64,000 bases of DNA from Bacteroidota bacterium (GTDB lineage: Bacteria; Bacteroidota; Bacteroidia; Bacteroidales; Lentimicrobiaceae), in the NCBI GenBank assembly GCA_009773455.1, contig WSXU01000013.1, positions 62,001 to 126,000 of the forward strand, written 5' to 3'. The notes beneath the pieces were generated by a model. It had not been told where the DNA came from and ran no database searches. It was given only the letters and a program-made list of their open reading frames with translations. Made by a program: the position numbers and the translations under genes. Of this stretch, positions 17,325 through 37,785 are shown piece after piece (within the stretch, counting starts at the first letter, position 1; each line of letters begins with the position of its first letter).

Positions 17325-18311
17325 ATGAATAAAATCCCTTTTTCAAAAGACATACTGAAAATCAAGGACATCGGAGCATTGGCCGATCATCTTGGGAATA
17401 TGCTGAAAGAAGAAATTTTTTTCAAATACAAAAGAAAAGGAGCTGTAATCGGGATCAGCGGTGGTATTGATTCCTCTGTTTCGATGGCACTGGCTGCAAA
17501 ATATCTTGGACCTGAAAGAGTATTCGGGGTTATGATGCCCGAAAAGGATTCGAGTCCCGACAGCGAAAGTATGGCATCAAGACTTGCAAAGAAATTTGGT
17601 GTTGAGGCGGTAGTTGAAAACATCAGGCCTGCCCTTGAGGGTTTTAAATGTTATGAGAGACGTGATGAAGCGATTAAAAGAGTCTTCCCTGATTTCGATC
17701 CGATAACGGATAAATCAAAGATCGGTATCAACAAAACCGGTCTTGATCAGAAACTGCCGCCGGTATTCCATTTAACTGTAATTGATAAAGCCGGGAACCA
17801 GCGTAGTAAGATTATTCCCGTAAAGGAGTATCTGCAGATCGTTTCCGCCTCCAATCTGAAACAGCGGTGCCGTATGGCAATGGTATATTACTATGCAGAG
17901 AAAATGCATTACGTGGTTATCGGCACTGCCAACAAGCATGAAATAGACCAGGGATTTTTTGTAAAATTCGGCGATGGCGGTGCAGATTTATACCCGCAGG
18001 CCAATCTTTACAAGACACAGGTTTACCAGTTGGCTGCCTACCTGGGTGTTAATCAGGAAATCATCGACCGCACTCCGACCACCGACACGTATAGTGCTGA
18101 ACAAACCCAGGAAGAGTTCTTCTATCAGCTTCCGTTTGATATTATGGATCCGATGTGGTATGGTTATGAGAACGGATATTCTCCGGAAGAGGTGGGTGAA
18201 GTAATGGGTATGTCGGCTGAAGAAACGAAGATCATTTTTGAGAATTTTGCACGCAAAATTAAAACAACCGAATATTTAAGGGCAAATCCGTATTATTTCC
18301 CGCTCATTTAG
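17325..18311 (+). CDS. NadE-like ammonia-dependent ATP-pyrophosphatase ligase
   Basis: This 328-residue protein belongs to the NAD synthase family: the PP-loop SGGIDSS is at residues 45-51, and TANKHEIDQG, KFGDGGADLYP and NLYKTQVYQLAAYLG follow the NadE core. There is no glutaminase domain, so ammonia must come from elsewhere. Two parts differ from housekeeping NadE: an insertion of about 40 residues before LKQRCRMAMVYYYAEK, and PTTDTYSAEQTQEEFFY where NadE normally has a PSAGLxxGQTDE-type segment. It sits 10 bp upstream of an AMP-forming ligase in an acylation cluster. It may therefore form an amide on a pathway intermediate instead of NAD. A plain nadE role is the alternative. Confidence 0.75.
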   Translation: MNKIPFSKDILKIKDIGALADHLGNMLKEEIFFKYKRKGAVIGISGGIDSSVSMALAAKYLGPERVFGVMMPEKDSSPDSESMASRLAKKFGVEAVVENIRPALEGFKCYERRDEAIKRVFPDFDPITDKSKIGINKTGLDQKLPPVFHLTVIDKAGNQRSKIIPVKEYLQIVSASNLKQRCRMAMVYYYAEKMHYVVIGTANKHEIDQGFFVKFGDGGADLYPQANLYKTQVYQLAAYLGVNQEIIDRTPTTDTYSAEQTQEEFFYQLPFDIMDPMWYGYENGYSPEEVGEVMGMSAEETKIIFENFARKIKTTEYLRANPYYFPLI

Positions 18312-18321
18312 CCGGTCTATT

Positions 18322-19785
18322 ATGAATGTATTCGATTACTTTTTCGAAACTTCCGGAGTATTAGAAAAAGAAGCAGTGGTAGGGCGCGAGAGCATCTCCT
18401 ACATAGATTTAAGCAGTAATGCCTTAAAAGCAGCCCGGCAGTTTGGTAAAGCACACGGTGAGAACAATTATGTATTGATTCTGAGTGAAAACTCCGTGTT
18501 CTTTATCACCGCCTATCTTGCCATCATGAAATCGGGGAATATCTGTGTGCCGCTCAATCCGGCCATTGAACCTGAGAACCTTGATAAAGTACTGGCCAAA
18601 ACAGGGTCTACCCTGGCTTTTATCAGTAAACGCTATCAACAAAGATTCGTTTCCTATGGATTTACGGTTTATGACGATGAAACATTTAAAAACTGGATAT
18701 CTGCTGAAGACAACGGATCACCTGAAACAGGAAAAACTCCTTTTGATGAAACCCGGCTTGCCGAGATCATCTTCACGTCCGGATCAACCGGTGAACAGAA
18801 AGGGGTAATGATCACGCATAAAAATATCATTGCCAACACTGCTTCCATTGTTGAATACCTGAACCTTACCACTGCCGATACCATTGAAGTGGTTATGCCA
18901 TTTTATTATTGCTATGGCCTGTCGCTGCTTCATACCCATCTGAGGGTAGGCGGAGCTGTGCATATGAACAATTCCTTCATATTCATCGGAAGTGTGATTG
19001 ATGACCTCAATAAATATAATTGCACCGGTTTTGCAGGTGTTCCAAGCCATTTCCAGATATTGCTGAGGAAAACGAAGGACTTTAAAACGACTAAATTTCA
19101 TTCCCTCCGCTATGTAACACAGGCCGGAGGAAAGTTGCACACGGCATTTATCGAAGAATTCATCAATGCATTCCCTGATATCAGGTTTAATGTTATGTAC
19201 GGGCAGACAGAAGCGACAGCCCGCCTGTCCTACCTCCCTCCCGAAGAGCTTCGCCGGAAACTTGGATCGCTCGGAAGAGGCATTCCCGGTGTTACGCTTA
19301 AAGTAGCAGATGAAAACGGCAACCCTGTAAAACCCGGAGAAACCGGAGAAATTCTGGCCAGGGGAGACAACATTATGGCGGGTTATTTTAAAGACCCCGA
19401 AACGACTGCCATGACGATAAAGGAAGGATGGCTATACACCGGTGACATTGCTACCGTGGATGAAGAAGGGTATATTTTTATGCAGTCGCGCGCCAAAGAG
19501 ATCATCAAGGTAAGGGGAATCAGGATCAGTCCGAAAGAGATTGAAGCAGTGATTGTAACTTACCCGGGTGTTATTGACTGCACCATTTCGGCCGAACACG
19601 ATGATGTAACCGGTGAATCGGTGAAAGCTACAGTATTTGTTAATGAGGCCGATCTTGATAAATTCAACGAAGAAGCCATCCGGCAACATTGCGCGGCCAA
19701 CCTGGCTTCTTATAAGGTGCCGCAGAAAGTAGTCTTCGATACCAAACTCACCTTCAATTCAGCCGGCAAGAAGTCTAAATATTAA
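18322..19785 (+). CDS. AMP-forming acyl/aminoacyl ligase (class I adenylating enzyme)
   Basis: This 487-residue adenylate-forming ligase has the ATP loop FTSGSTGEQKG (151-161), YGQTEATAR, the hinge GWLYTGDIATVDEEGY and RAKEIIKVRGIRISPKEIE, and an invariant-type Lys in the C-terminal FNSAGKKSKY. It should activate a carboxylic acid as acyl-AMP and load it on a thiol. The carrier protein at 23165 is the obvious acceptor, which makes this the DltA-like component of the cluster. The specificity pocket does not let me name the acid. It is 10 bp after the NadE-like gene and convergent with the SGNH gene. Confidence 0.85.
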   Translation: MNVFDYFFETSGVLEKEAVVGRESISYIDLSSNALKAARQFGKAHGENNYVLILSENSVFFITAYLAIMKSGNICVPLNPAIEPENLDKVLAKTGSTLAFISKRYQQRFVSYGFTVYDDETFKNWISAEDNGSPETGKTPFDETRLAEIIFTSGSTGEQKGVMITHKNIIANTASIVEYLNLTTADTIEVVMPFYYCYGLSLLHTHLRVGGAVHMNNSFIFIGSVIDDLNKYNCTGFAGVPSHFQILLRKTKDFKTTKFHSLRYVTQAGGKLHTAFIEEFINAFPDIRFNVMYGQTEATARLSYLPPEELRRKLGSLGRGIPGVTLKVADENGNPVKPGETGEILARGDNIMAGYFKDPETTAMTIKEGWLYTGDIATVDEEGYIFMQSRAKEIIKVRGIRISPKEIEAVIVTYPGVIDCTISAEHDDVTGESVKATVFVNEADLDKFNEEAIRQHCAANLASYKVPQKVVFDTKLTFNSAGKKSKY

Positions 19786-19805
19786 GGAGTCTGTTTGTTT
19801 TTCTC

Positions 19806-20729
19806 CTATCCCCTGATCCAGATTCTCCTGACCAGAGAATCCATCATGGTGTGGTTTGGGTGGAAATAGTCGATGAAATTTCCACGGTTGGACTTGAATT
19901 CAGTCCATAGATCAAGGTCGATGGTTTTCCCGAGCGTATTGATATCAGCTTTAAACCGCATCAACTCATCGGTCAGGCCGACTTTTCCCAGATGCTTGTC
20001 AACGCCTTCATAAACAGGCAGGATGATGAAGCTCAATTCAATATTATTCTGATCACAATACTTTCTGATTTTCTGAAATTCACCGAAATAGGAAAAGGGA
20101 TAGGAATATTCCTTAAAGAACAGGTTCAGCCTGAACTGAGCAAGATCTTCCATTTTATCGGGAGGCAGGAATTCATATGACCGGGAGATGATCCAGGGAT
20201 TACGTGTTGTAGCCCAGGCTGTATTGGCGACAGCATCAAAAAAGATCTCCTTGGTGGTAAAATACTGGTAAGGTCTTTTAAAATAGTCCTGTGCGAAATG
20301 AAAAAGATCGTATTCCCTTTCCGCATTGTAGTTCATAAAGGCCACCTGAAAATAAACCTTCTCGAGCCGGGTGTGTCCGGCTGTAAACCAGAATGTCTCG
20401 AACATCGTTTTGAAACTGGCACCCGGGAAACAGAAATTAAAGTACTCTTCGCCGGTAATCTTCCTGATCATATCCACATTGATGTCCTTACCCTGTGAAT
20501 CGCCGATGATTACTTTGGATACCGGGTTTCTTTTATACCTGATCGTTTTCCACAAAATATTTCCCCGGGGACTGCTTTCGTCTGTGCGTTGAATTACAGT
20601 AAACTTGTCTTTATCTCCGATAACATGAAATACATTGAAGAAATTGTAAGGATCAACAATGAGTATAAAGAGAGCATAAAGAAAAACAGGCACCAGAAAC
20701 AAAATAATTTTCAGAATGTATTTTTTCAT
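19806..20729 (-). CDS. Membrane-anchored SGNH-fold protein (DltD/AlgJ-like)
   Basis: This 307-residue protein has one N-terminal membrane helix (about residues 5-25) and an extracytoplasmic SGNH-like domain. The nucleophile block is VIIGDSQG (S78) and the C-terminal block DYFHPN supplies D287 and H290. This layout, a helix plus a GDS-type domain encoded directly downstream of an MBOAT gene, matches DltD and the AlgJ/AlgX/PatB group. Those proteins complete transfer of an acyl group from the membrane to a surface polymer. It is 23 bp after the MBOAT gene and presumably co-transcribed. Confidence 0.75.
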   Translation of the reverse strand: MKKYILKIILFLVPVFLYALFILIVDPYNFFNVFHVIGDKDKFTVIQRTDESSPRGNILWKTIRYKRNPVSKVIIGDSQGKDINVDMIRKITGEEYFNFCFPGASFKTMFETFWFTAGHTRLEKVYFQVAFMNYNAEREYDLFHFAQDYFKRPYQYFTTKEIFFDAVANTAWATTRNPWIISRSYEFLPPDKMEDLAQFRLNLFFKEYSYPFSYFGEFQKIRKYCDQNNIELSFIILPVYEGVDKHLGKVGLTDELMRFKADINTLGKTIDLDLWTEFKSNRGNFIDYFHPNHTMMDSLVRRIWIRG

Positions 20730-20752
20730 GACTGAGGATGGCTTAACAGAAA

Positions 20753-22192
20753 TTAAAACTTGAGGTATACAAAGGTATCACCGGCACCGCTGTAATAAAA
20801 GACAGAGATTATCAGCAGATAATATCCGATCCACCTGACGGCTGTTGGCATTTTCATGAAATATCCGGCAACATCAACTCCCCTTTCCTGGTATATTTCA
20901 ATCACGAACAACACTGCAAAGGCTGACAGGGCAATAAAGAATCCCGCTGAATCGTAGATTAGTTTATTCCCTGAAAGACTCAGATGAAAATTTGAAAACA
21001 GGTGAGTGATGAAGTAAAAGGCATCACTTATGGTATGGGAATTAAAAAATACCAGGGTTAAGGAAAAGAAAAGATAAGTAAGTGCCCTGCTGAAAAATAC
21101 CACCATCCCGGCAGGAAGTTTTGAGGCGATTTCCAACCGCTTCCTCTTGTAAACAAATTCGTAACTGATGGCTATACCCTGCAGTATACCTACCACGATA
21201 AAAGTCCAGTTTGCACCGTGCCAGATACCGATTACAAAAAATGAGACAAAAATTCCCATTATCGCGGCACGGTTACCAAACCGCCTGTATTTAACAATAA
21301 AGGGAGAAAAGATAAAATCGTTACACCATGACGATAGTGATATATGCCACCGCCGCCAGAATTCACCCACATTTTTCGCGAAAAAAGGGCGGTTGAAATT
21401 ATCAACCAGCCGGATGCCAAATATACGTGCCACCCCAAGGGCCATATCAGTGTAGCCGGAAAAGTCGCAATACAGGTGAATGGCCTGCAGAAAAAAGATC
21501 AGCAGAAGCGGGAGGCCGGAATAATTGCCTATATGTTCATAAACCAATCCAACCGGGGCACCGAGATTGTCACCGATGACCACTTTCTTAAACATTCCCC
21601 AGAGGAAAAGTCTCAGACCGGCAGTAATGTTATCCTGAATGAAATCAATCCGGGTATTGATCTGTGGAAAAAAATGATTGGACCGTTCAACAGGTCCGGC
21701 CAGAAACTTCGGGAAGAATGCGAGGTAATTTGCGAAATTTACAAAATTCCGCTCTGCTTTTTCAGCCCGCCTGTTGATCCGGATAATGTAACCCAGTGCC
21801 TGAAATGTATAATAGGAAATACCAACCGGTACGACAAGAGAAAGGTATGGCAGGCTGTTGTTCACTGAAATAATGTTGAGCAGGGTATTGATATTCTCAA
21901 ACAGGAAATTGATGTACTTATAAAAAGCCAGAATGCCAATATTCACATAAACAGCGAACCAGAAAATCTTTAAACGCCATTTTGTATCTATTTGCTTTTC
22001 AAGTGCTTTGCCTAAAAAATAATTAAGTACGATAAAGGCTATCGTAAAAAGAACTAAATTTGGGGAGAGCATTGCAATGAAATAGATGCTCGCGGCCAAC
22101 AACACCGGTTGTCTGAATTTCTGGCTCACTCCGTAATATAAAAGGAATGAAACAGCTAAAAACACGAAGAAATGGAAAGAGTTGAATAGCAC
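20753..22192 (-). CDS. MBOAT family membrane O-acyltransferase (DltB/AlgI-like)
   Basis: This is a 479-residue polytopic MBOAT protein, with the conserved VGEFWRRWHISLSSW and catalytic-His IGIWHGANWTF regions and an N-terminus (LFNSFHFFVFLAVSF) typical of AlgI/DltB-like members. It would move an acyl chain across the cytoplasmic membrane to an extracytoplasmic acceptor. The start is a GTG at 22192 preceded by an AAGG-type ribosome site; it is only 21-54 bp from the divergent SGNH lipoprotein gene. The downstream gene is the SGNH partner. Confidence 0.9.
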   Translation of the reverse strand: MLFNSFHFFVFLAVSFLLYYGVSQKFRQPVLLAASIYFIAMLSPNLVLFTIAFIVLNYFLGKALEKQIDTKWRLKIFWFAVYVNIGILAFYKYINFLFENINTLLNIISVNNSLPYLSLVVPVGISYYTFQALGYIIRINRRAEKAERNFVNFANYLAFFPKFLAGPVERSNHFFPQINTRIDFIQDNITAGLRLFLWGMFKKVVIGDNLGAPVGLVYEHIGNYSGLPLLLIFFLQAIHLYCDFSGYTDMALGVARIFGIRLVDNFNRPFFAKNVGEFWRRWHISLSSWCNDFIFSPFIVKYRRFGNRAAIMGIFVSFFVIGIWHGANWTFIVVGILQGIAISYEFVYKRKRLEIASKLPAGMVVFFSRALTYLFFSLTLVFFNSHTISDAFYFITHLFSNFHLSLSGNKLIYDSAGFFIALSAFAVLFVIEIYQERGVDVAGYFMKMPTAVRWIGYYLLIISVFYYSGAGDTFVYLKF

Positions 22193-22246
22193 CTTGGATG
22201 AATTTAAATATGAATGAAAAGTATTATTAACCTAATATCTCAGACT

Positions 22247-23113
22247 ATGTTTAAAACAAAAGTATCAATTTTCATGGTCTTTGCTTTTGTATCCTCATTT
22301 TTTTTTATTTCAGGATGTAAAAATGAAAGAAGCATGACCCCTGACAAAAATGCCTATAAAATCATGTTTCTCCATCATAGCACAGGACATGTGATATGGA
22401 AAGGCAAGGCAGAAGGATTAAAAAAAATAACCGCATTCTTCAGTAAAAAGGAATTGGTCCCGGAATGGTTCTCTGCCTACAACAAAGCCAATGGAACCAA
22501 TTATTACATTACTGAACAGAATTTCCCGAAAGCAAAACCTTATGGCTGGCAAAATTACCCTTACGATTACTTTAATATCTGGGTAAAGAATGGTGGAAAC
22601 ACCGCTTATCAGGAAGAGCCGACTCTGGAGATGCTCACCAAAGAGTACAATATGATCATCTTCAAGCATTGTTTTCCGGTAGGTAATATACTTAAAGGTG
22701 TCGATTCTGCTGATATTGGTTCAGATATTAAGACCCTGGAGAATTACAAATTGCAATATCTGGCATTAAAAGAAAAGCTGTTACAGTTTCCGGAAACGAA
22801 ATTCCTGATCTGGACCGCCGCTGCATTGGTTGAGTCACAAACTACGCCGGAAGAAGCCGCCAGAACAAGGGAATTTGTTGATTGGGTTGCCAACGTGTGG
22901 GACACCCAGGGTGATAATATTTACCTTTGGGATTTTTATAACCTTGAAACGGAAGGTGGAGCATTTTTGAAACCGGAAAATGCTGTCGGCAAAGATGATT
23001 CACATCCAAACGGGAAGTTTGCCAACAGGGTTGCCCCATTGTTCTGTCAGCGAATTGTCGATGTTATTGAAACAAATGGTGAGAAAACCGGTTTATCAGG
23101 AGAACCAAAGTAA
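22247..23113 (+). CDS. SGNH-like lipoprotein
   Basis: Counted from the ATG at 22247 this is a 288-residue lipoprotein: signal peptide with lipobox FFISGC (C24), then a globular domain. FLHHSTGHVIW places a candidate nucleophile at S45 and the C-terminal DDSHPNG gives the Asp-x-x-His pair of SGNH hydrolases. An upstream ATG at 22214 is in frame, but the signal peptide fits 22247 better. It is followed 51 bp later by the carrier-protein gene. With the other SGNH protein it gives the cluster two surface esterase/transferase-like domains, resembling alginate acetylation. Confidence 0.65.
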   Translation: MFKTKVSIFMVFAFVSSFFFISGCKNERSMTPDKNAYKIMFLHHSTGHVIWKGKAEGLKKITAFFSKKELVPEWFSAYNKANGTNYYITEQNFPKAKPYGWQNYPYDYFNIWVKNGGNTAYQEEPTLEMLTKEYNMIIFKHCFPVGNILKGVDSADIGSDIKTLENYKLQYLALKEKLLQFPETKFLIWTAAALVESQTTPEEAARTREFVDWVANVWDTQGDNIYLWDFYNLETEGGAFLKPENAVGKDDSHPNGKFANRVAPLFCQRIVDVIETNGEKTGLSGEPK

Positions 23114-23164
23114 AGATTAAAAGAATTTTATTCTGTAATTTATAAAACTTTAAACATTCCGATT

Positions 23165-23416
23165 ATGACTGACATTGCTGCTGTGAAAGAACAGCTTAAA
23201 AAATTTATTGTCGAAACATCCTTTGTACCTGCCGAAAAAGTTAAAGATGATACCTTGATTTTTGTCGAAGGCATCTTCGATTCAATGGGATTCCTTTCAC
23301 TGATCAATTTCATTGAAGATAATTTTAAAATCAAGGCTGCCGATTCAGAACTGCTTGAGGGCAATTTCGAATCCGTGAATGCAATCTCAGGCTTTATCAG
23401 CCGAAAACTCAACTAA
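23165..23416 (+). CDS. Acyl/peptidyl carrier protein (DltC-like)
   Basis: This 83-residue acidic protein has the four-helix carrier fold and a phosphopantetheine Ser at position 40 in GIFDSMGFLSL. Its sequence differs from a housekeeping fatty acid AcpP (no DSLD), as expected for a dedicated carrier. It lies 12 bp before the AsnB-like gene and in the same cluster as a free-standing AMP ligase, so the ligase probably loads it. Confidence 0.85.
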   Translation: MTDIAAVKEQLKKFIVETSFVPAEKVKDDTLIFVEGIFDSMGFLSLINFIEDNFKIKAADSELLEGNFESVNAISGFISRKLN

Positions 23417-23428
23417 GACTTCTTATCT

Positions 23429-25405
23429 ATGTGTGGTATAGCAGGAATTTTCAATTTCTCGGCTACCGAAAATGCACCTTCTGAACAACAGCTGACTTCA
23501 ATGTTGTCGGCCATCCGTTACAGGGGGCCCGATGAAAGTGGCATTTATCTTGGAAACAGGATCGGGTTGGGTAATGTACGATTGAGCATCATCGGCCTGT
23601 CTTCGGGGCAGCAACCCATACATATCAGGGATAAAAGGTACTGGATAGTATACAACGGTGAGTTGTTCAACTACATCGAAATCCGCCGTGACCTTGAAAA
23701 ACTGGGAATTCAGTTTACGACACAAACAGATACTGAAGTGGTAGTGCAGGCTTATGCACAATGGGGTCCCGCTTGTTTGCAGCAATTTGTCGGTCAGTTT
23801 GCCATAGCCATCTGGGATAAGGAAAAGGAAGAACTTTTCATTGCACGCGACAGGGTTGGGATCAGACCTGTGTTTTATACCCGGAGCGGAAACCAATTCA
23901 TTTTCTGTTCCGAGATCAAGGGCATCTTCCAGATCCCAAAGGTCAGAAGGGTGGTCAATCAGAAAGCGCTATCTCAGATATTCACTTTCTGGACAACCAT
24001 CAGTCCTGACACCCCTTTTGAAGACATTTTTGAAGTTTCGCCCGGGCATTACATGCTGATCAATGAAAATGGCATACGGACCGGGCAATACTGGAGCCTG
24101 AAATATCCTGAAGCAAACGGCTATAGTGTAAAAAGCATTGACGAATCTGTGGAAGAGCTCAGGGAACTTTTCAGGGATTCTGTCAGGAAACGTCTGCGGG
24201 CTGATGTAGAAGTGGCTGCTTATCTTAGCGGAGGCATCGATTCAAGTGTTACCACGGCTTTCATCCACGAAGTTGAGCCGGGTGTACTTAACACCTTTTC
24301 GATCGGTTTCAAAGACAAGGCATTTGATGAAACAGCGTTCCAGCTGGAAGCTTCAAAATACTTCAACACCAACCATATGGCCTTCACCTGCAGTTCGGGT
24401 GAAATAGGAAAATACTTCTACGATACCATCAGGCATGCGGAATTTCCAATACTAAGGACAGCTCCGACACCTATGTATATGCTGTCGAAAAAAGTCAGGG
24501 AGCAGAACATTAAGGTAGTAATTACCGGTGAAGGCGCCGACGAGATGCTTTCGGGCTATAATATCTTCAAGGAGGCCAAAATCCGCAGGTTCTGGGCACG
24601 TAACCCACAATCTGATATCAGACCCTTGCTGCTTAAAAAGCTGTACCCCTACCTGCCCATGATGAAAGAGGCAAAAACCTCTGTGCTGAAGATGTTTTTT
24701 GGCTACAAACTTGGCGAAACGGACAATCCATATTACTCACACCTGCTTCGCTGGCATAATACTTCAAGAATACAGAATTATTTTGCTGACCCTGTCATTG
24801 CAGGGCTCAACGGTTATGAGCCCATTGATGAGGTCGGGAAATCTCTTGCTGAAAATTTCAGTAAATGGGGTGATCTTGCCAAATCACAATATCTTGAATC
24901 GACAATTTTCATGTCGGGATACCTGCTTTCGTCGCAGGGAGACCGGATGGCTATGGCCAATTCTGTCGAAGGACGATACCCCTTCCTTGACCACCGGGTG
25001 ATTGAATATGCAGCCACACTTCCGGAGAGTTATAAACTCAATTGCCTGAATGAAAAGTTCATTCTGAAGAAGATGATGAAGGGCAAAATACCTGAATCAA
25101 TCCTCAAAAGGCATAAACAGGCTTACCGCGCTCCCATCCATACCAGCTTTATCGGGCCTGAAGCTCCTGAATATGTGATGGAACTCCTGAAAGAATCAAC
25201 CATCAGATCTTTCGGCTATTTCGATCCGGGAAAAGTTGACAAGCTTGTGGAGAAAATCAGTCAGAACACACAGGTTACCGAAATGGAAAATATGGCGCTG
25301 GCAGGAATCATTTCCACACAGTTGATCCATCATTTCTTCATTCAGGATAACATCTTTGTTTCTCCTGCCGACAGACCTGCCAATCTCATCATCCTCAGGG
25401 ATTAG
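23429..25405 (+). CDS. Asparagine synthetase B-like glutamine amidotransferase
   Basis: This 658-residue protein has an N-terminal class II glutaminase domain with nucleophile C2 (MCGIAGIFN), RGPDESG and YNGELFNY, then a synthetase domain with SGGIDSS (267-273) and GEGADEMLSGY. All key residues are present. It is longer than classical AsnB and resembles the AsnB/AsnO-like proteins of polysaccharide and natural-product clusters. In this setting it may amidate a carboxylate on the carrier protein or on a glycan. Simple asparagine synthesis cannot be excluded. It is the last gene of the ACP run. Confidence 0.85.
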   Translation: MCGIAGIFNFSATENAPSEQQLTSMLSAIRYRGPDESGIYLGNRIGLGNVRLSIIGLSSGQQPIHIRDKRYWIVYNGELFNYIEIRRDLEKLGIQFTTQTDTEVVVQAYAQWGPACLQQFVGQFAIAIWDKEKEELFIARDRVGIRPVFYTRSGNQFIFCSEIKGIFQIPKVRRVVNQKALSQIFTFWTTISPDTPFEDIFEVSPGHYMLINENGIRTGQYWSLKYPEANGYSVKSIDESVEELRELFRDSVRKRLRADVEVAAYLSGGIDSSVTTAFIHEVEPGVLNTFSIGFKDKAFDETAFQLEASKYFNTNHMAFTCSSGEIGKYFYDTIRHAEFPILRTAPTPMYMLSKKVREQNIKVVITGEGADEMLSGYNIFKEAKIRRFWARNPQSDIRPLLLKKLYPYLPMMKEAKTSVLKMFFGYKLGETDNPYYSHLLRWHNTSRIQNYFADPVIAGLNGYEPIDEVGKSLAENFSKWGDLAKSQYLESTIFMSGYLLSSQGDRMAMANSVEGRYPFLDHRVIEYAATLPESYKLNCLNEKFILKKMMKGKIPESILKRHKQAYRAPIHTSFIGPEAPEYVMELLKESTIRSFGYFDPGKVDKLVEKISQNTQVTEMENMALAGIISTQLIHHFFIQDNIFVSPADRPANLIILRD

Positions 25406-25503: not shown

Positions 25504-26379
25504 ATGAAAGCATATGTATTTCCCGGACAGGGCGCCCAGTTCGTGGGTATGGGCAAAGACCTTTATGATGGCAACTCCATGGCAAAAGAGATGTTTGAAA
25601 AAGCCAATGAAATCCTCGGCTTCAGGATAACAGACCTGATGTTTGCAGGTACCGATGAAGATCTGCGTCAGACCAGGGTTACCCAGCCTGCTATTTTCCT
25701 TCACTCCGTGATTCTGGCCAAAACCCTGGGAGGTGAATTCAAACCCGAAATGACAGCCGGGCATTCACTCGGCGAATTTTCAGCTTTGGTGGCTGCAGGG
25801 GCACTTTCTTTTGAGGATGGCCTGAAGCTGGTGTATGCCCGTGCCATGGCCATGCAGAAAGCCTGTGAAGCTGAACCTTCGACCATGGCTGCCATTCTTG
25901 GTCTTGAAGATTCAAAGGTCGAAGAAGTCCTTGCAGGAATTGAAGAAGTTGTGGTACCTGCCAATTACAACAGTCCGGGCCAGCTCGTCATCAGCGGGTC
26001 AATGAGAGGAATAGAAGTAGCCTGCGAACTGCTGAAAGCTGCCGGGGCAAAACGTGCACTGCCATTAAAAGTTGGTGGAGCATTTCATTCACCGTTGATG
26101 GAACCGGCACGGGTTGAACTTGCAGCTGCCATCAATGCCACCACTTTCAGCAAACCGGTATGTCCGGTATACCAGAATGTTTCAGGAAAGCCGGTAACCG
26201 AACCGGCCCAGATCCGCGAAAACCTTGTGGCACAACTAACCGCCCCTGTCCGCTGGACACAAAGCGTTCAGAATATGGTTGCCGATGGTGGAAAGATGTT
26301 TATCGAAGTCGGTCCCGGCACTGTTTTACAGGGACTGGTGAAAAAGATTGCCCCCGAGGTCGAGGCAGCAAGTGCCTGA
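25504..26379 (+). CDS. fabD: Malonyl-CoA:ACP transacylase
   Basis: FabD loads malonyl groups on acyl carrier protein for fatty acid synthesis. The protein (291 residues from the ATG at 25504) starts KAYVFPGQGAQFVGMG, has the nucleophile S88 in AGHSLGEFSAL and the later VGGAFHSPLM with the catalytic His. The frame is open upstream to 25447, but the promoter lies inside that stretch, which fixes the start at 25504. It follows the carrier-protein cluster but has its own strong promoter and looks like the housekeeping gene. Confidence 0.95.
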   Translation: MKAYVFPGQGAQFVGMGKDLYDGNSMAKEMFEKANEILGFRITDLMFAGTDEDLRQTRVTQPAIFLHSVILAKTLGGEFKPEMTAGHSLGEFSALVAAGALSFEDGLKLVYARAMAMQKACEAEPSTMAAILGLEDSKVEEVLAGIEEVVVPANYNSPGQLVISGSMRGIEVACELLKAAGAKRALPLKVGGAFHSPLMEPARVELAAAINATTFSKPVCPVYQNVSGKPVTEPAQIRENLVAQLTAPVRWTQSVQNMVADGGKMFIEVGPGTVLQGLVKKIAPEVEAASA

Positions 26380-30595: not shown

Positions 30596-30856
30596 TATTA
30601 TATATATATATCTGTTGGTAATAAATGATTCTGAAAATAAATCCGTAAACCTCAAAAAATACATAAATAAATATAATATCCAGCCATTCAATTTGTAAAA
30701 GGAGATGAAAGCAATGATCGAGAATACAACAATTTGTGCCAAAACTAATAACAATAATCTTCTTTAACAATCAAATTACAGAATTTTCAAATAATAAATA
30801 ATCCAAATCCTGTTTGAATCATTGTTTTTGTAAATTTATTGCAGCAAGACCGTTTT

Positions 30857-32416
30857 ATGTCTTTACCAGGAAACATAGATTATATCATCATCGGCTCCGG
30901 ATTTGGCGGGAGTGTGGCTGCGCTGCGCCTGGCCGAGAAAGGATATAAGGTTGCGGTTCTTGAACAGGGGAAGAGATTTTCAACAGAAGATTTCCCTGAA
31001 TCAGACTGGAACCTGAAAAAATTCCTCTGGGCTCCGGTTCTCGGATGGCATGGTATTCTCAGATGCCACTTTTTTAAGGAGGTCTTCGTACTTACCGGCA
31101 CAGGAGTCGGGGGTGGCAGCCTGGTCTATGCCAACACACTGATGAAGCCCGGTGATGATTTCTTCGGTAATCCGGCCTGGCAAACCGGCATCAACTGGAA
31201 GGGACAACTGGAAGATCATTATGAAACCGCCCGGAAAATGCTCGGTGCAAACCGGTTTCCTGTTCCTGACAATGCCGAAGATCTGGTATTGAAAGAAATT
31301 GCCGTTGAAATGGACAGGGAGGAATCATTCAGCCTGGTTGATACCGCCGTGTATTATGGCGATCGTGAGAAAGAAACCGATCCCTATTTTGGTGGTGCAG
31401 GCCCCCTCAGGAAGGGCTGCTCCGGCTGTGCAGGTTGCATGACCGGGTGCCGTGAAAACGCCAAGAACACCCTGGATAAGAATTACCTCTGGTTCGCCGA
31501 AAAGCTTGGAGTACAGATATTTCCTGAAACCAAAGCTTACAAAATTGAAAACACGGAAGGAAAATACAGGGTTTCCACGAAAAAATCAGGCCGAAAAGGG
31601 GTTAGCGGTCTTTTTGAAGCCCGTGGTCTCATCGTAAGTGCGGGTACAACGGGGACCCTGGAATTGTTGTTAAAACAAAAATACAGGTACAAGTCCCTGA
31701 CGAACCTTTCCGATTCAATAGGCAACAATGTCCGAACCAATTCCCAGAGCATCAGCGGGTTGGTTGAAGCCAACCGGAAACTGAACAACGGGGTAGCCAT
31801 CACTTCAATTTTCAGTCCTGAACCCGGCACCCACATCGAAATGGTAAAATTCAATGACCGGAGCGGAGCCATTACCCACATCGGTGGTTTCAGTGCCGAT
31901 CATCCAAGCCCCGGTAAAAGGGCTGGCCATGTGATAACCAGCTCATTGCGTCACCCGTTTAAATTACTTAAACTGCTTTTCTCCTTCAGATGGGGGAAAC
32001 GGAGTATTGTGATGCTTGTAATGCAGACGCACGACAGTGCAATGAGGATGGAGTTGAAAAGAGGATTGTCCGGCACCAGGCTCCGGTTTGACCGGAATAG
32101 CGGGAAAGTACCGGCATTCATCCCAACCGGTCAGAAAGTGCTTCACAAATACGCCCAAAAGGTGAATGGGACTCCTCTCAACAGTTTGACTGAGTCACTT
32201 TTTAATATGTCGACCACCGCGCACATCATCGGTGGATGTCCGATGGGTAAAAATGGTTCAGAAGGTACGGTTGATGCTGATTTCAGGGTTCATGGATATG
32301 AAAACATGTATATTCTTGACAGTTCCATCATTCCCTGTAACCCGGGGGTAAATCCGAGTTTGACAATCCTGGCGCTGAGTGAATATGCGATGGGGAAAAT
32401 AAATCCGAAAGCTTAA
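30857..32416 (+). CDS. GMC-type FAD oxidoreductase with a Cys cluster
   Basis: This 519-residue flavoprotein starts with a Rossmann FAD motif (YIIIGSGFGGSVAALRLAEKG) and ends with the GMC signature (GGCPMG and, near the C-terminus, NPSLTILALSEYAM). In the middle, CSGCAGCMTGCRENAKNT holds four closely spaced Cys residues, seen in the cholesterol-oxidase/long-chain-alcohol-oxidase branch. It oxidises an alcohol or similar substrate that I cannot name. The frame also allows a TTG start at 30839; the ATG at 30857 is better placed before SLPGNIDYIIIG. Confidence 0.85.
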   Translation: MSLPGNIDYIIIGSGFGGSVAALRLAEKGYKVAVLEQGKRFSTEDFPESDWNLKKFLWAPVLGWHGILRCHFFKEVFVLTGTGVGGGSLVYANTLMKPGDDFFGNPAWQTGINWKGQLEDHYETARKMLGANRFPVPDNAEDLVLKEIAVEMDREESFSLVDTAVYYGDREKETDPYFGGAGPLRKGCSGCAGCMTGCRENAKNTLDKNYLWFAEKLGVQIFPETKAYKIENTEGKYRVSTKKSGRKGVSGLFEARGLIVSAGTTGTLELLLKQKYRYKSLTNLSDSIGNNVRTNSQSISGLVEANRKLNNGVAITSIFSPEPGTHIEMVKFNDRSGAITHIGGFSADHPSPGKRAGHVITSSLRHPFKLLKLLFSFRWGKRSIVMLVMQTHDSAMRMELKRGLSGTRLRFDRNSGKVPAFIPTGQKVLHKYAQKVNGTPLNSLTESLFNMSTTAHIIGGCPMGKNGSEGTVDADFRVHGYENMYILDSSIIPCNPGVNPSLTILALSEYAMGKINPKA

Positions 32417-33786: not shown

Positions 33787-34839
33787 TTACCTTTTCACAT
33801 ACTGATTTTCGTAATACTTCTGATAGTCACCGGATGTTACATTATTCAGCCAGGTTTCGTTACTCAGATACCAATCTACTGTTGATTCAAAGCCTTCGGT
33901 AAATTTAATGGTCGGTTCCCAGCCAAGTTCATTCTTAATCTTCGTGGCATCTATGGCATAACGGAGATCATGACCGGCGCGGTCCTTCACATAGGTAATC
34001 AGTTTTGCCGATTCTCCCGGCACACGGCCAAACTTATTGTCCATAATTTCACAAAGCTTCTTAATGAGTTGGATATTCTGCCATTCGTTGTTTCCGCCGA
34101 TGTTATAGGTTTCGCCTTCCTTTCCTTTATGAAAAATCAGGTCGATGGCCTTGGCATGATCTTCAACATAGAGCCAGTCCCTTACATTTTCGCCTTTACC
34201 ATATACCGGCAATGGTTTGTTGTTGCGGATATTGTGAATAAAGAGAGGAATAAGTTTTTCAGGAAACTGGTAAGGCCCGTAGTTGTTTGAACAGTTCGAC
34301 AATACTACCGGCAGGTGATAGGTATGGAAATAAGCCCTGACCAGGTGATCGCTGCTGGCTTTACTGGCTGAGTAAGGGCTCCTGGGGTCATAGGGTGTTG
34401 TTTCAAGAAACTTACCCTCCTCGCCCAGCGAACCATAAACTTCATCCGTGGAAATATGATAAAACCTTTTGCCTTCAGATCCATCCTTCCATGCTGCTCT
34501 GGCTGAATTTAACAGATTGACCGTCCCAACGATATTGGTCATGATAAACTCCATTGGATTGGCAATGGAACGGTCAACGTGTGATTCGGCAGCAAGGTGG
34601 ACAACACCGTCGAACTGATATTTATCAAACAGGCCCTGAATCCATGGGCCATTGGTAATGTCGCCCTTCTCGAAAATATAATTGGGCATTTTCTCAATAT
34701 CGGTCAGATTTGCCAGGTTTCCCGCATAGGTGAGCATATCCAGGTTAACTATCCGGTAATCCGGATACTTGTTTACGAACAACCGGACTACATGTGAGCC
34801 GATAAAACCGGCGCCTCCGGTTATCAGGATGGTTTTCAT
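33787..34839 (-). CDS. rfbB: dTDP-glucose 4,6-dehydratase
   Basis: This 350-residue short-chain dehydrogenase has TGGAGFIGSHVV (NAD binding), HLAAESHVDRSI, STDEVYGSLGE with the catalytic Asp-Glu, and YSASKASSDHLV with the Tyr-x-x-x-Lys pair. It converts dTDP-glucose to the 4-keto-6-deoxy sugar, the branch point for deoxysugars of surface glycans. It is the last gene of a minus-strand operon (acetyltransferase, galE, rfbB); rmlA, rmlC and rmlD are not in the window. Confidence 0.95.
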   Translation of the reverse strand: MKTILITGGAGFIGSHVVRLFVNKYPDYRIVNLDMLTYAGNLANLTDIEKMPNYIFEKGDITNGPWIQGLFDKYQFDGVVHLAAESHVDRSIANPMEFIMTNIVGTVNLLNSARAAWKDGSEGKRFYHISTDEVYGSLGEEGKFLETTPYDPRSPYSASKASSDHLVRAYFHTYHLPVVLSNCSNNYGPYQFPEKLIPLFIHNIRNNKPLPVYGKGENVRDWLYVEDHAKAIDLIFHKGKEGETYNIGGNNEWQNIQLIKKLCEIMDNKFGRVPGESAKLITYVKDRAGHDLRYAIDATKIKNELGWEPTIKFTEGFESTVDWYLSNETWLNNVTSGDYQKYYENQYVKR

Positions 34840-34866
34840 ATTGCTGATTTATTGTTAATATCTCTT

Positions 34867-35886
34867 TTACTTTTTCTTTGCAAGCACAAGCTCCCATTTC
34901 CAGGCGGAGTCCATCATCTCATCCAGACTTTTGGCAGCTTTCCAGCCAAGTTCTGTATTGGCATAAGAGGTATCGGCCCATACTTTCTCCACATCCCCGG
35001 GGCGCCGGCCAACGATCTTATAGTTCAGTTTCTGACCTGTCACTTTTTCAAATGACTGAATGACTTCAAGCACACTGAAACCATTTCCGGTTCCGAGGTT
35101 GAAAATCTCAAAATCAGATTTTCCCTTACCTCCGATCATCCGGTTAACGGCCACCACATGTGCCTGGGCCAGGTCAACCACATGAATGTAGTCGCGCACT
35201 GCTGTTCCATCTTTAGTATCATAGTCTGAACCAAATACATTAAGGGATTGTCGCAACCCAACTGCTGTCTGGGTAATGAAAGGAACCAGGTTATTCGGGA
35301 CTCCGAGTGGCAATTCACCGATCAGGGCAGAATCGTGGGCACCGATCGGATTAAAGTATCTTAGAGCGATGGTTTTTAAACCATAGGCTTCCACTGCAAA
35401 ACGGATGATCTGTTCCGACATCTGCTTGGTATTGCCATAAGGCGACCAGGCTTCCTTAACCGGGGAAGTCTCCTTTACGGGAAGTTCGTCGGGCTGTCCA
35501 TAAACGGTACAGGAGGAGGAAAACACCAGATTTTTGATATCATTGTCCTTCATCCCCTGAAGGATATTGATCAGAGATTCGAGATTGTTACGATAATACA
35601 TCAGGGGATCAGCCATTGATTCACCGACAGCCTTAAAGGCCGCAAAATGAATAATGCCGTCAATATCTTTATGATTGCTGAAGAATTCGCTGGTCTTATC
35701 ACGGTCTATCAGATCGAACCGGTGAAACTCAGGCCGGATTCCCGTAATTTCAGTAATCCTGTCGATCACATCAATGTGGGAATTTGACAGGTTATCAATA
35801 ATGACCACCTCTACACCCTGCATCTGCAGTTCAACAGCCGTATGTGAGCCGATGTATCCGGTTCCTCCGGTAACAAGTATTTTCAT
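34867..35886 (-). CDS. galE: UDP-glucose 4-epimerase
   Basis: This 339-residue epimerase has TGGTGYIGSHTAVEL, the Ser-containing SSSCTVYG, YGNTKQMSEQ (Tyr/Lys) and GRRPGDVEKVWAD, all typical of GalE. It interconverts UDP-Glc/UDP-Gal (or the GlcNAc forms). It starts 16 bp after the hexapeptide acetyltransferase and ends 27 bp before rfbB, so the three genes form one operon. Confidence 0.95.
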   Translation of the reverse strand: MKILVTGGTGYIGSHTAVELQMQGVEVVIIDNLSNSHIDVIDRITEITGIRPEFHRFDLIDRDKTSEFFSNHKDIDGIIHFAAFKAVGESMADPLMYYRNNLESLINILQGMKDNDIKNLVFSSSCTVYGQPDELPVKETSPVKEAWSPYGNTKQMSEQIIRFAVEAYGLKTIALRYFNPIGAHDSALIGELPLGVPNNLVPFITQTAVGLRQSLNVFGSDYDTKDGTAVRDYIHVVDLAQAHVVAVNRMIGGKGKSDFEIFNLGTGNGFSVLEVIQSFEKVTGQKLNYKIVGRRPGDVEKVWADTSYANTELGWKAAKSLDEMMDSAWKWELVLAKKK

Positions 35887-35902
35887 ATTTCTGGTTTATA
35901 AT

Positions 35903-36484
35903 TTAATCCGTTTGTTTTCTGACCATCCCATCCAGAATCCTGTATCTTTCATGGCTTTCGGGACACACTGCGATTCCTGCTTCATCAAAGTTAAGCCGAT
36001 GACCGAACTCGCTCATCCATCCGATCTGCCGGGCAGGATTACCGACGACCAGCGCGTATGGCGGAACTGTTCGGGTCACCACAGCCCCTGCCCCGATAAA
36101 GGCAAATTCACCGATATCGTGACCACAGACTATGGTTGCATTGGCCCCGATAGAAGCCCCCCTGCGTACAACCGTCTGAGAATATTGTCCCCGTCTGACC
36201 ACGGCACTCCGCGGGTTCACCACATTGGTAAACACCATGGATGGCCCGAGAAACACATCGTCTTCGCAGATAACGCCGGTATAGAGTGAAACATTATTCT
36301 GAACCTTAACATTATTGCCAAGAATTACGCCGGGGGATACCACTACATTCTGTCCCAGATTGCAGTTATTACCAAGTTTACATCCGCTCATCAGGTGTGA
36401 GAAATGCCATATTTTACTCCCATTCCCTATTTCACAACCTTCATCTACAATGGCTGTCTCGTGCACAAAGTACTCGCTGCTCAT
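35903..36484 (-). CDS. Hexapeptide-repeat sugar N-acetyltransferase (WbpD/WlbB or FdtC-like)
   Basis: This is a left-handed beta-helix acyltransferase of 193 residues from the ATG at 36484. Repeats of the form (I/V)GxGxx run through [31 protein letters not shown] and [13 protein letters not shown]. It resembles the N-acetyltransferases that act on 3-amino sugars (UDP-GlcNAc3N-uronate or dTDP-Fuc3N). With the DegT aminotransferase it would finish such a sugar. The frame extends to 36574, but the promoter lies in the extension. Confidence 0.85.
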
Positions 36485-36571
36485 AATATATGGTTTAATG
36501 AACAAGCAATTCGCCAAACTGATCAGAGGATCAGGGATGTCAAATTGTTTGTCATGGTTTATATTAATATT

Positions 36572-36601
36572 CAAATATAAGGTTTCGTCACTTTATTCAA
36601 A
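36572..36601 (-). promoter_or_regulatory. Promoter of the acetyltransferase-galE-rfbB operon
   Basis: On the minus strand TTTG (36598-36601) is followed after 18 nt by TATATTTG (36572-36579), close to the consensus. It lies between the degT terminator and the start at 36484 and excludes the longer reading frame. Confidence 0.65.
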
Positions 36602-36602
36602 A

Positions 36603-36636
36603 AAAAAGAGGCTTGAAGAATATTCAGCCTCTTTTT
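36603..36636 (-). terminator. Strong terminator after degT
   Basis: AAAAAGAGGC (36603-36612) pairs perfectly with GCCTCTTTTT (36627-36636), with TGAA/TTCA pairing further in. In the minus direction it is followed by a T run. It ends degT transcription before the next operon. Confidence 0.9.
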
Positions 36637-36654
36637 AACTTAGGGAATATGTCT

Positions 36655-37785
36655 TTATGCATTGACGAATTCAAGAACAGAAGCAGTGATATGAGCCAGT
36701 TGGTCCTCATCGAGTTCGGTGTGCATAGGAAGTGAAATTACAGTCCTGCAAAGATGTTCCGTTACCGGGAAATCCCCTTCCCGGTATCTTGGATCAAGGT
36801 ATGCCTTTTGCATATGCAGGGGTACCGGATAATAGATCATGGCCGGAACCTCTTTTGATGCCAGAAATTCCTGAAGCGCATTGCGGTCTATGTCTTTAGT
36901 AACCAGGGTATACTGATGAAATACATGATTCGATCTTTCAAACCTGACAGGTATCCTGAGCTTAGGATGATTTCTGAAAGCATTGTCGTAATATTCGGCT
37001 GCCCTGTTTCTGGATGCTGCATAATCGTCGAGGCGGGCAAGCTTTACTTTCAGGACTGCGGCCTGGATGCTGTCGAGGCGGCTGTTTACCCCGATAAAAT
37101 CATGATAATACCTGACCGTCATTCCATGATTAACCACAACCCTCAGTTGCCTGGCCAGTTCATCATCATTGGTAAAAATAGCACCCCCGTCACCATAGCA
37201 TCCCAGGTTTTTACTGGGAAAGAATGACGTACATCCAACGTGACCAATGGTCCCGGCCTTTTTGCGGGACCCGTTTTTGAAAATATAATCGGCTCCGATT
37301 GCCTGACAGGCATCCTCAATAACAAACAGGTTGTGCTGTGATGCAATCTCCATCATGGCTTCCATATCAGCGCACTGTCCAAACAAGTGAACGGGAACAA
37401 TGGCGCGGGTTTTGGGTGTGATGGCCCTGCGAACGGACTCCGGATCAATGTTAAACGTATCAGGGTCAACATCTACCACCACCGGCGTATAACCCAGCAG
37501 AGCAATAACCTCTGCAGTAGCAATAAAAGTAAAATTGGTGGTTATTACCTCATCTCCCGGTTTTATTCCCAATGCCATCATGGCCACCTGCAATGCATCG
37601 GTTCCATTGGCACACGGAATCACATGACTGATGCCGAGATACTTCTCGAGATCATCCTGAAACCCTTTGACGGCAGGTCCGTTAATGAAAGCAGTTGAAT
37701 TTATGACATCACTGATGGCCTGATCGATTTCGGGCTTGATTTTTTCATATTGACGTTTCAGGTCAACCATTGAAATTTTATTCAT
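36655..37785 (-). CDS. DegT/DnrJ/EryC1/StrS sugar aminotransferase (WlbC/WbpE-like)
   Basis: This 376-residue PLP enzyme belongs to the nucleotide-sugar aminotransferases. CANGTDALQVAMMALG, VHLFGQCADM, FVIEDACQAIGA and the PLP lysine in FPSKNLGCYGDGG are intact, and GVNSRLDSIQAAVL is the usual dimer motif. Sequence resembles the 3-aminotransferases WbpE/WlbC. The neighbouring hexapeptide acetyltransferase would acetylate the product. A dehydrogenase that makes the 3-keto substrate is not in the window. Confidence 0.9.
   Translation of the reverse strand: MNKISMVDLKRQYEKIKPEIDQAISDVINSTAFINGPAVKGFQDDLEKYLGISHVIPCANGTDALQVAMMALGIKPGDEVITTNFTFIATAEVIALLGYTPVVVDVDPDTFNIDPESVRRAITPKTRAIVPVHLFGQCADMEAMMEIASQHNLFVIEDACQAIGADYIFKNGSRKKAGTIGHVGCTSFFPSKNLGCYGDGGAIFTNDDELARQLRVVVNHGMTVRYYHDFIGVNSRLDSIQAAVLKVKLARLDDYAASRNRAAEYYDNAFRNHPKLRIPVRFERSNHVFHQYTLVTKDIDRNALQEFLASKEVPAMIYYPVPLHMQKAYLDPRYREGDFPVTEHLCRTVISLPMHTELDEDQLAHITASVLEFVNA

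Follow-up and report, generated by a model that had tools for sequence, protein, structure and literature searches.

We examined a window of 64,000 nucleotides from a Bacteroidota bacterium of the family Lentimicrobiaceae (contig WSXU01000013.1, positions 62,001 to 126,000; "the window" below means this whole stretch, which is part of contig 65 of its assembly). Seven of its genes, lying within 8 kb, appear to form a surface-decoration module made of two parts. The first part is a quartet that would make amides and consists of a NadE-like enzyme, an AMP-forming ligase, a dedicated acyl carrier protein, and an AsnB-like amidotransferase. The second part, an MBOAT acyltransferase with two SGNH proteins, would serve export in the style of the Dlt and Pat systems; it is optional across relatives and present here. 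We consider this two-part reading about evenly balanced between right and wrong. It is built on the gene set, its conservation, the predicted folds, the motifs, and the residue differences, all of which were directly established. A first-pass annotation of the window had placed the seven open reading frames (ORFs) within 8 kb, and all were found where it had placed them, so the cluster is real and its coordinates are correct (Table 1). It had also assigned the NadE-like, ligase, MBOAT, and AsnB-like families; each of these exceeded the cut-off of its Pfam or NCBIfam model or, for the ligase, matched PF00501.

An alignment of the NadE-like family was used to scan a collection covering 84,980 species. 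In total, 589 stretches were kept and 63 were confirmed, giving at least 62 loci. All counts out of 62 are among the matches listed, and further relatives exist beyond them. By their record titles, the listed loci came from Bacteroidota, Chlorobiota, Ignavibacterium, Zixibacteriota, Acidobacteria, Alphaproteobacteria, Fibrobacter, and others, with near relatives titled, for instance, Lentimicrobium sp. and Bacteroidetes bacterium. It should be kept in mind that record titles may err (L048 is titled Eubacteriaceae, yet its NadE-like protein is 92% identical to that of the window) and that the 62 loci are not fully independent (L049 and L050 repeat L036 and L039, and L053 and L054 come from the same assembly, on separate contigs). 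The conserved core of these loci was the quartet, which was complete in 39 of the 62, with at least three members present in 51. Among the listed loci of at least 17 kb, the quartet was complete in 26 of 31, and many of the incomplete quartets sat on short contigs. In relatives, the NadE-like gene adjoins the ligase gene. As controls, we used 20 neighborhoods of housekeeping NadE genes from related genomes. None contained any quartet member at the thresholds used, which were set after the case matches had been viewed and before the controls were viewed, and the gene clustering is thus not due to chance. The first-pass annotation had proposed gene-neighborhood analysis in Bacteroidota as a check and had named scattering of the homologues in relatives as an outcome that would overturn its reading. 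An independent draw of 12 other Bacteroidota matches gave all four members in 9 loci and at least three in all 12. Co-localization is therefore strong and broad, and the homologues are not scattered.

We also surveyed 392 sampled Bacteroidota genomes, scoring only the best few candidates per genome. PRK00876, the NCBIfam family of the NadE-like protein, was above its cut-off in 13 of these genomes, with the window's own counted; of the 14 named control genomes, Methanosarcina acetivorans alone also exceeded it. In the reverse survey, a ligase similar to the window's at E <= 1e-75 was found in 7 of the 392 genomes, all of them among the 13 PRK00876 holders. A contig titled Methanosarcina (L093) carried an AsnB-NadE-ligase set 55 to 63% identical to the Bacteroidota queries and is perhaps mis-binned, although the score of M. 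acetivorans itself above the PRK00876 cut-off weighs against this. A Zixibacteriota locus (L090) had two NadE-like genes flanking a single carrier and ligase.

Within the genus, the survey covered the NadE-like, ligase, AsnB-like, and MBOAT genes in 18 genomes. At the cut-offs used, 10 genomes held all four genes; the NadE-like gene was found in these 10 at 83 to 94% identity, and they are the same 10 that carry the ligase. Two badly fragmented assemblies (G004 and G015) held the AsnB-like and MBOAT genes only, and 6 genomes held none of the four, 2 of these 6 being less than 85% complete. The presence and absence of the MBOAT gene tracked those of the quartet genes tested. The five genus loci that we fetched carried the entire block in one gene order, with FabD after it.

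The NadE-like family (79 sequences) has a conserved PP-loop ATP site, with Gly43, Ser45-Gly47, Asp49, Ser50, and further columns common to housekeeping NadE. Its extra segments, at approximately residues 108 to 113 and 128 to 172, were gapped in most of the 21 housekeeping NadE sequences compared, and motifs such as PTTDT also differed from those sequences. The protein called "NAD(+) synthase" in PRK00876 looks like a dedicated amide synthetase. For the AsnB-like protein, we kept 53 of 58 ORFs in a comparison with E. coli AsnB. The family retains the glutaminase and synthetase residues, and the glutaminase site of the window protein is intact (Cys2, Arg51, Asn76, Gly77, Glu78, and Asp101). The stretch equivalent to residues 317 to 327 of E. 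coli AsnB (numbered with Cys as 1), which we take to bind aspartate, was replaced, with a two-residue deletion in all 53 sequences. A plain asparagine synthetase was rejected on this altered acid-site stretch.

The ligases were aligned using 60 of 67 ORFs (those of at least 430 residues), including a second, different ligase in L058, and subtypes were counted from the residue alignment because the two ligase queries, Lig and LigB, cross-match. The window ligase has Cys197 in the column of the amino-acid specificity aspartate, a column that we take to be that of GrsA Asp235 and the DltA Asp, consistent with an alignment to LgrA. Across the 60 ligases this column held 43 Cys, 13 Asp, 2 Val, and 2 Ile. 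The substrate of the Cys-type ligase found in the window is probably not an alpha-amino acid, and that of the Asp-type ligase probably is one. A PrmC-like gene was present in the loci of 10 of the 13 Asp-type ligases versus none of the 47 other ligases. Overall, a PrmC/HemK-like methyltransferase gene was found in 13 of the 62 listed loci (L060, L067, L070, L073, L078, L080, L085, L087, L095, L098, L099, L100, and L107, of which L095, L099, and L107 contribute no row to the ligase alignment), in none of the 12 independent loci, and in none of the 20 controls. NPPY was present in 11 of 12 clustered PrmC-like ORFs. Enzymes with NPPY methylate planar amide or amino nitrogens; such an enzyme would suit an amide product, and the ligase Asp would suit an amino-acid substrate. 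The carrier has a serine at position 40, the modification site given in the first-pass annotation, and the DS pair at this site was found in all 46 related carriers compared. Relatives of the carrier lay between the SGNH lipoprotein and AsnB in the genus loci and near the quartet elsewhere; the ORF clustering omits the window carrier itself, an antisense ORF having been picked in its place.

The window MBOAT ends in FVYLKF, which fits the pattern FxYxxF. This motif ended 25 of the 26 ORFs of its group, the window's included, and the single miss was a fragment. WHG, whose histidine is presumably the catalytic histidine of MBOAT, was found in 22 of the 26, and one full-length MBOAT (L073) was without the WHG string. 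The only PDB sequence matches of the window MBOAT were two, both DltB-type structures. According to the available part of PMC12148441, PatA acetylates the tyrosine in its own C-terminal FxYxxF, DltX bears the same motif, and the carrier DltC supplies DltB with its cargo. With this motif at its own end, the window MBOAT would not require a separate DltX. The cluster has the marks of the PatAB/Alg type, namely, an MBOAT with the conserved His and a C-terminal FxYxxF and, by predicted folds and motifs, an SGNH partner.

Neither SGNH candidate had a Pfam or NCBIfam family match or a PDB sequence match, and because families could not settle their identity, we modeled both from alignments of their relatives. 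The AlphaFold model of the lipoprotein (predicted local distance difference test [pLDDT] score, 81) had PatB as its best PDB match (E, 2.3e-4; template-modeling score [TM-score], 0.40 on the query, which is low). The model of the membrane-anchored protein (pLDDT, 89) matched SGNH proteins, including DltD (E, 5.8e-4 and 6.5e-4; TM-scores, 0.43 to 0.44, also low). The membrane-anchored protein has a GDS motif, and its Asp287 and His290 are invariant in the alignment. The lipoprotein has FLHHSTG at the GDS position of SGNH proteins, invariant in 11 of 11 aligned sequences, and an SHP block; judged from some relatives, its true start is probably residue 12, at approximately base 22247. The first-pass claim of two SGNH proteins is thus supported by the predicted folds of both, at low TM-scores and without family matches.

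Only 9 of 38 complete quartets in the listed loci had an MBOAT gene nearby; among the 12 independent loci, one had an MBOAT gene and none an SGNH gene. The MBOAT is therefore an add-on to the quartet, and together with the SGNH genes it is an optional delivery module. For the quartet's surroundings, ORF clustering over 75 sources placed genes for Wza and Wzc (export and chain length) and a WcaJ-like transferase near the quartet, these names being given by reading of the sequences. A Wza-, Wzc-, or WcaJ-type gene was present in 19 of the 62 listed loci, 4 of the 12 independent loci, and none of the 20 controls. Among the neighbors tested, PF02397 was matched by a sugar transferase from L108 that belongs to a different ORF group.

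When 72,556 plasmid records were searched at the protein level, the NadE-like gene turned up in 117 of them with a Sinorhizobium query and in 116 with the window protein as the query; most of these records were from Sinorhizobium, Azospirillum, Ensifer, Mesorhizobium, and Shinella. On pSymB of S. meliloti 1021 (L158, NC_003078.1, ~1450615 to 1455388), genes for the AsnB-like enzyme, the carrier, an Asp-type ligase, and the NadE-like enzyme follow one another consecutively. In Mesorhizobium ciceri pMc1284, asnB, a carrier gene, a gene for an adenylate-forming enzyme, and nadE are likewise consecutive, with a HemK/PrmC-family methyltransferase nearby. We infer that the pSymB ligase-carrier pair is SMb20650/SMb20651 because the replicon, the ligase-carrier adjacency, and the resemblance of the ligase to E. 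coli FadD (33% identity) all fit. As stated in the accessible portion of PMC7232532, the two genes are co-transcribed, holo-SMb20651 becomes acylated by SMb20650 in E. coli (credited there to an earlier paper), and the ligase shows no long-chain fatty acyl-coenzyme A (acyl-CoA) function; an excerpt of PMC10315480 includes smb20650 in a list of genes with lowered expression during predation. The first-pass annotation had also held that its reading would fall if the ligase loaded CoA with a common fatty acid and the carrier was not its acceptor. That outcome finds no support in these excerpts, insofar as a pair that we matched by inference and that is of the Asp type can speak for the window. 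No description of the quartet was found in the titles or abstract starts of the literature searched, and Ramos-Vega 2009, on SMb20651, may describe the neighboring genes.

Several known systems resemble the cluster in part. DltABCDX shares the ligase, the dedicated carrier, the MBOAT, and an SGNH protein, with DltB-type structures among the PDB matches and DltD among the fold matches. In contrast to DltABCDX, the window has a ligase without the amino-acid Asp, two added amide synthetases, and a shuttle motif at the end of the MBOAT itself. PatAB and AlgIJX, which O-acetylate peptidoglycan and alginate, share an MBOAT with C-terminal FxYxxF and SGNH partners, and the lipoprotein fold is nearest PatB; as far as the consulted part of PMC12148441 goes, those systems use an acyl-CoA donor and no carrier, whereas a carrier, a ligase, and amide synthetases adjoin here. 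The S. meliloti pSymB locus has the same four genes and, under the tags assigned above, ligase-dependent acylation of the carrier (PMC7232532, in the same portion, which treats the ligase and carrier alone), but it differs in its Asp-type ligase, and no MBOAT match was found in the 24 kb fetched. The XrtA/PEP-CTERM models TIGR03098 and TIGR03108 were, respectively, the best or second-best curated model for the ligases scanned (window, 270.6 bits; cut-off, 592.35) and the second-best curated model for the AsnB-like enzymes (window, 424.4 bits; cut-off, 816.9), with scores that stayed under the cut-offs. WbpS of the Wbp/Vim pathway is also an AsnB-like amidotransferase that places a carboxamide on a surface molecule; unlike in the window, a carrier, a ligase, and a NadE-like partner are not mentioned in the part of PMC7468200 at hand.

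Under the two-part reading, the ligase would adenylate a carboxylic acid and load it onto the dedicated carrier at Ser40. The AsnB-like enzyme, with glutamine-derived ammonia, and the NadE-like enzyme, with ammonia or another amine, would each use ATP to form an amide, on the acid or on its partner; possibly both act on the carrier-bound acid itself. The carrier would finally hold an amide-bearing acyl group. In Asp-type systems, the PrmC-like NPPY methyltransferase may N-methylate the amide. The MBOAT would transfer the acyl group from the carrier to the tyrosine of its own FVYLKF tail and hand it to the serine of a periplasmic SGNH protein (membrane-anchored, lipoprotein, or both), which would place it on a surface glycan or lipid. 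The proposed elements of this scheme are the substrates, the amidation steps and their order, the supply of the MBOAT by the carrier, and the acceptor. The position of the MBOAT gene between the ligase and carrier genes in the genus favors the carrier as donor. The first-pass biochemical reading is supported in part, by the co-localization and the acyl-shuttle motif. The weight shifts, however, to the quartet as the heart of the system. What had been called a Dlt/Alg-like surface acylation cluster does have an MBOAT with an acyl-shuttle motif, but its Dlt/Alg-like machinery is optional and would be one way of delivery. A bolder form of this reading, which we think somewhat more apt to fail than to hold, is that a widespread and so far unrecognized four-enzyme pathway, with two different amide synthetases of which one is misnamed NAD synthase, makes carrier-bound carboxamides for surface polymers, and that in the genus it supplies a hybrid export route whose MBOAT, equipped with its own shuttle, is loaded from a carrier protein, bridging Dlt and Pat/Alg.

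A number of observations weigh against the two-part reading. None of the export-type genes tested was found in 43 of the 62 listed loci, though many of these loci are short. The quartet was incomplete in 5 of the 31 long listed loci and in 3 of the 12 independent loci. In the five genus loci and in the window, the block sits before FabD, outside polysaccharide operons, and in G007 the NadE-ligase pair is on one contig and the MBOAT and AsnB genes are on another, both parts being retained. The scarcity of MBOAT genes beside complete quartets counts here as well: most quartets have no MBOAT nearby, and the MBOAT may therefore use another donor, for example acyl-CoA. Further, the SMb20650/SMb20651 tags were assigned by us to a record that is unannotated at the pSymB locus, and the ligase there is Asp-type.

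The AsnB-like enzyme might instead act like WbpS of P. gingivalis and amidate a uronic acid of a polysaccharide. The ligase, carrier, and NadE-like enzyme would then produce an acyl group of their own, and the amides would end up on two molecules. The AsnB-like PGN_1234 (WbpS) is required for the uronamide linking sugar (PMC7468200, from the part available), the XrtA/PEP-CTERM amidotransferase ranks second among curated models for the window AsnB, and an ORF in L084 resembles a UDP-sugar dehydrogenase by eye. We nevertheless find this alternative unlikely: the AsnB gene accompanies the carrier, ligase, and NadE-like genes across phyla, and the sugar gene groups in the ORF clustering each span fewer loci than AsnB does. 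Pairs of a carrier and a ligase are also used in making lipids and natural products, and among the weak matches of the window carrier, below their cut-offs, are models for cispentacin AmcB and for ornithine lipids. The product might accordingly be a membrane lipid or a small molecule that is secreted, rather than a polysaccharide decoration. This would also fit the many listed loci without any of the three export-type genes, but it seems quite improbable to us given that these genes do occur in almost a third of the listed loci and in no control, and that the window has an MBOAT and SGNH proteins, whose targets are envelope polymers in the known cases covered by the part of PMC12148441 consulted.

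There is little to recommend the view that the NadE-like gene encodes the organism's ordinary NAD synthetase, located here by coincidence. It draws on the NCBIfam family name and on the window's own assembly (4.8 Mb, 159 contigs), in which no second NAD synthetase was found; the sole other PF02540 match, on contig 135, is GuaA (GMP synthase) by sequence appearance. Against it, all 10 genus genomes with the NadE-like gene also show a longer NadE (open frames of ~550 to 573 amino acids in nine and pieces in G006), some genus genomes are without the NadE-like gene, and only 13 of 392 Bacteroidota carry it, a distribution that does not fit a housekeeping role. The extra segments point the same way, as does the company of the gene, which has at least two quartet partners beside it in each of the 12 independent loci. 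We set a housekeeping NAD synthetase aside on the co-occurrence with the longer NadE, despite the lack of another copy in the window's assembly; that assembly is 95.4% complete, and the missing copy probably reflects an assembly gap. Least probable of all is a standard D-alanylation system, even though a ligase, a carrier, an MBOAT, and an SGNH protein are all present. The window ligase is without the amino-acid-gripping aspartate, having Cys197 in its place, and D-alanylation is therefore unlikely. The MBOAT meets the general MBOAT family but scores 176.2 bits with the DltB model TIGR04091 (cut-off, 375), and the carrier scores 24.8 and 20.9 bits with the DltC models (cut-offs, 68 and 52.35). 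Plain D-alanylation was rejected on the ligase residue and these model cut-offs.

Table 1. Genes of the cluster and other features noted in the window
Feature	Position	Strand	Basis
NadE-like (PRK00876-type) ATP-dependent amide synthetase (putative), NAD synthetase paralogue	17325..18311	+	NF002048/PRK00876, 412.5 bits (cut-off, 313)
AMP-forming ligase	18322..19785	+	PF00501, 231.5 bits; Cys197 at the specificity Asp position of nonribosomal peptide synthetases (NRPS) and DltA
Membrane-anchored SGNH protein, predicted DltD/AlgJ-like role	19806..20729	-	N-terminal helix, predicted fold, GDS motif
MBOAT acyltransferase	20753..22192	-	PF03062, 72 bits (cut-off, 27); WHG histidine; C-terminal FVYLKF
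SGNH-fold lipoprotein (predicted), PatB-like	22214..23113	+	Alignment, AlphaFold model, PatB as best match
Dedicated acyl carrier protein, Ser40	23165..23416	+	PF00550, borderline, 20.7 bits (cut-off, 20.8)
AsnB-like glutamine-dependent amidotransferase, noncanonical acid-site stretch	23429..25405	+	TIGR01536, 504.7 bits (cut-off, 267.1)
FabD, ordinary, downstream of the cluster	~25504-26379		TIGR00128, 339.6 bits (cut-off, 260.9)
Oxidoreductase resembling cholesterol oxidase	30839-32416		478.6 bits (cut-off, 850)
Sugar-nucleotide genes, ~8 kb from the cluster	33787-37785		dTDP-glucose 4,6-dehydratase and GalE above cut-off; hexapeptide acetyltransferase-like and DegT-type aminotransferase-like proteins, both below cut-offs

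A family annotated as NAD(+) synthase thus appears to be dedicated to surface chemistry, from Bacteroidota to nodule-forming rhizobia. If this is true, the annotation would be corrected in many genomes, amide-bearing groups would be predicted on surface glycans, and the question would become testable in Sinorhizobium meliloti, a laboratory model. Should the MBOAT be supplied by the carrier, it would connect the two kinds of MBOAT-SGNH acyl transfer known so far.

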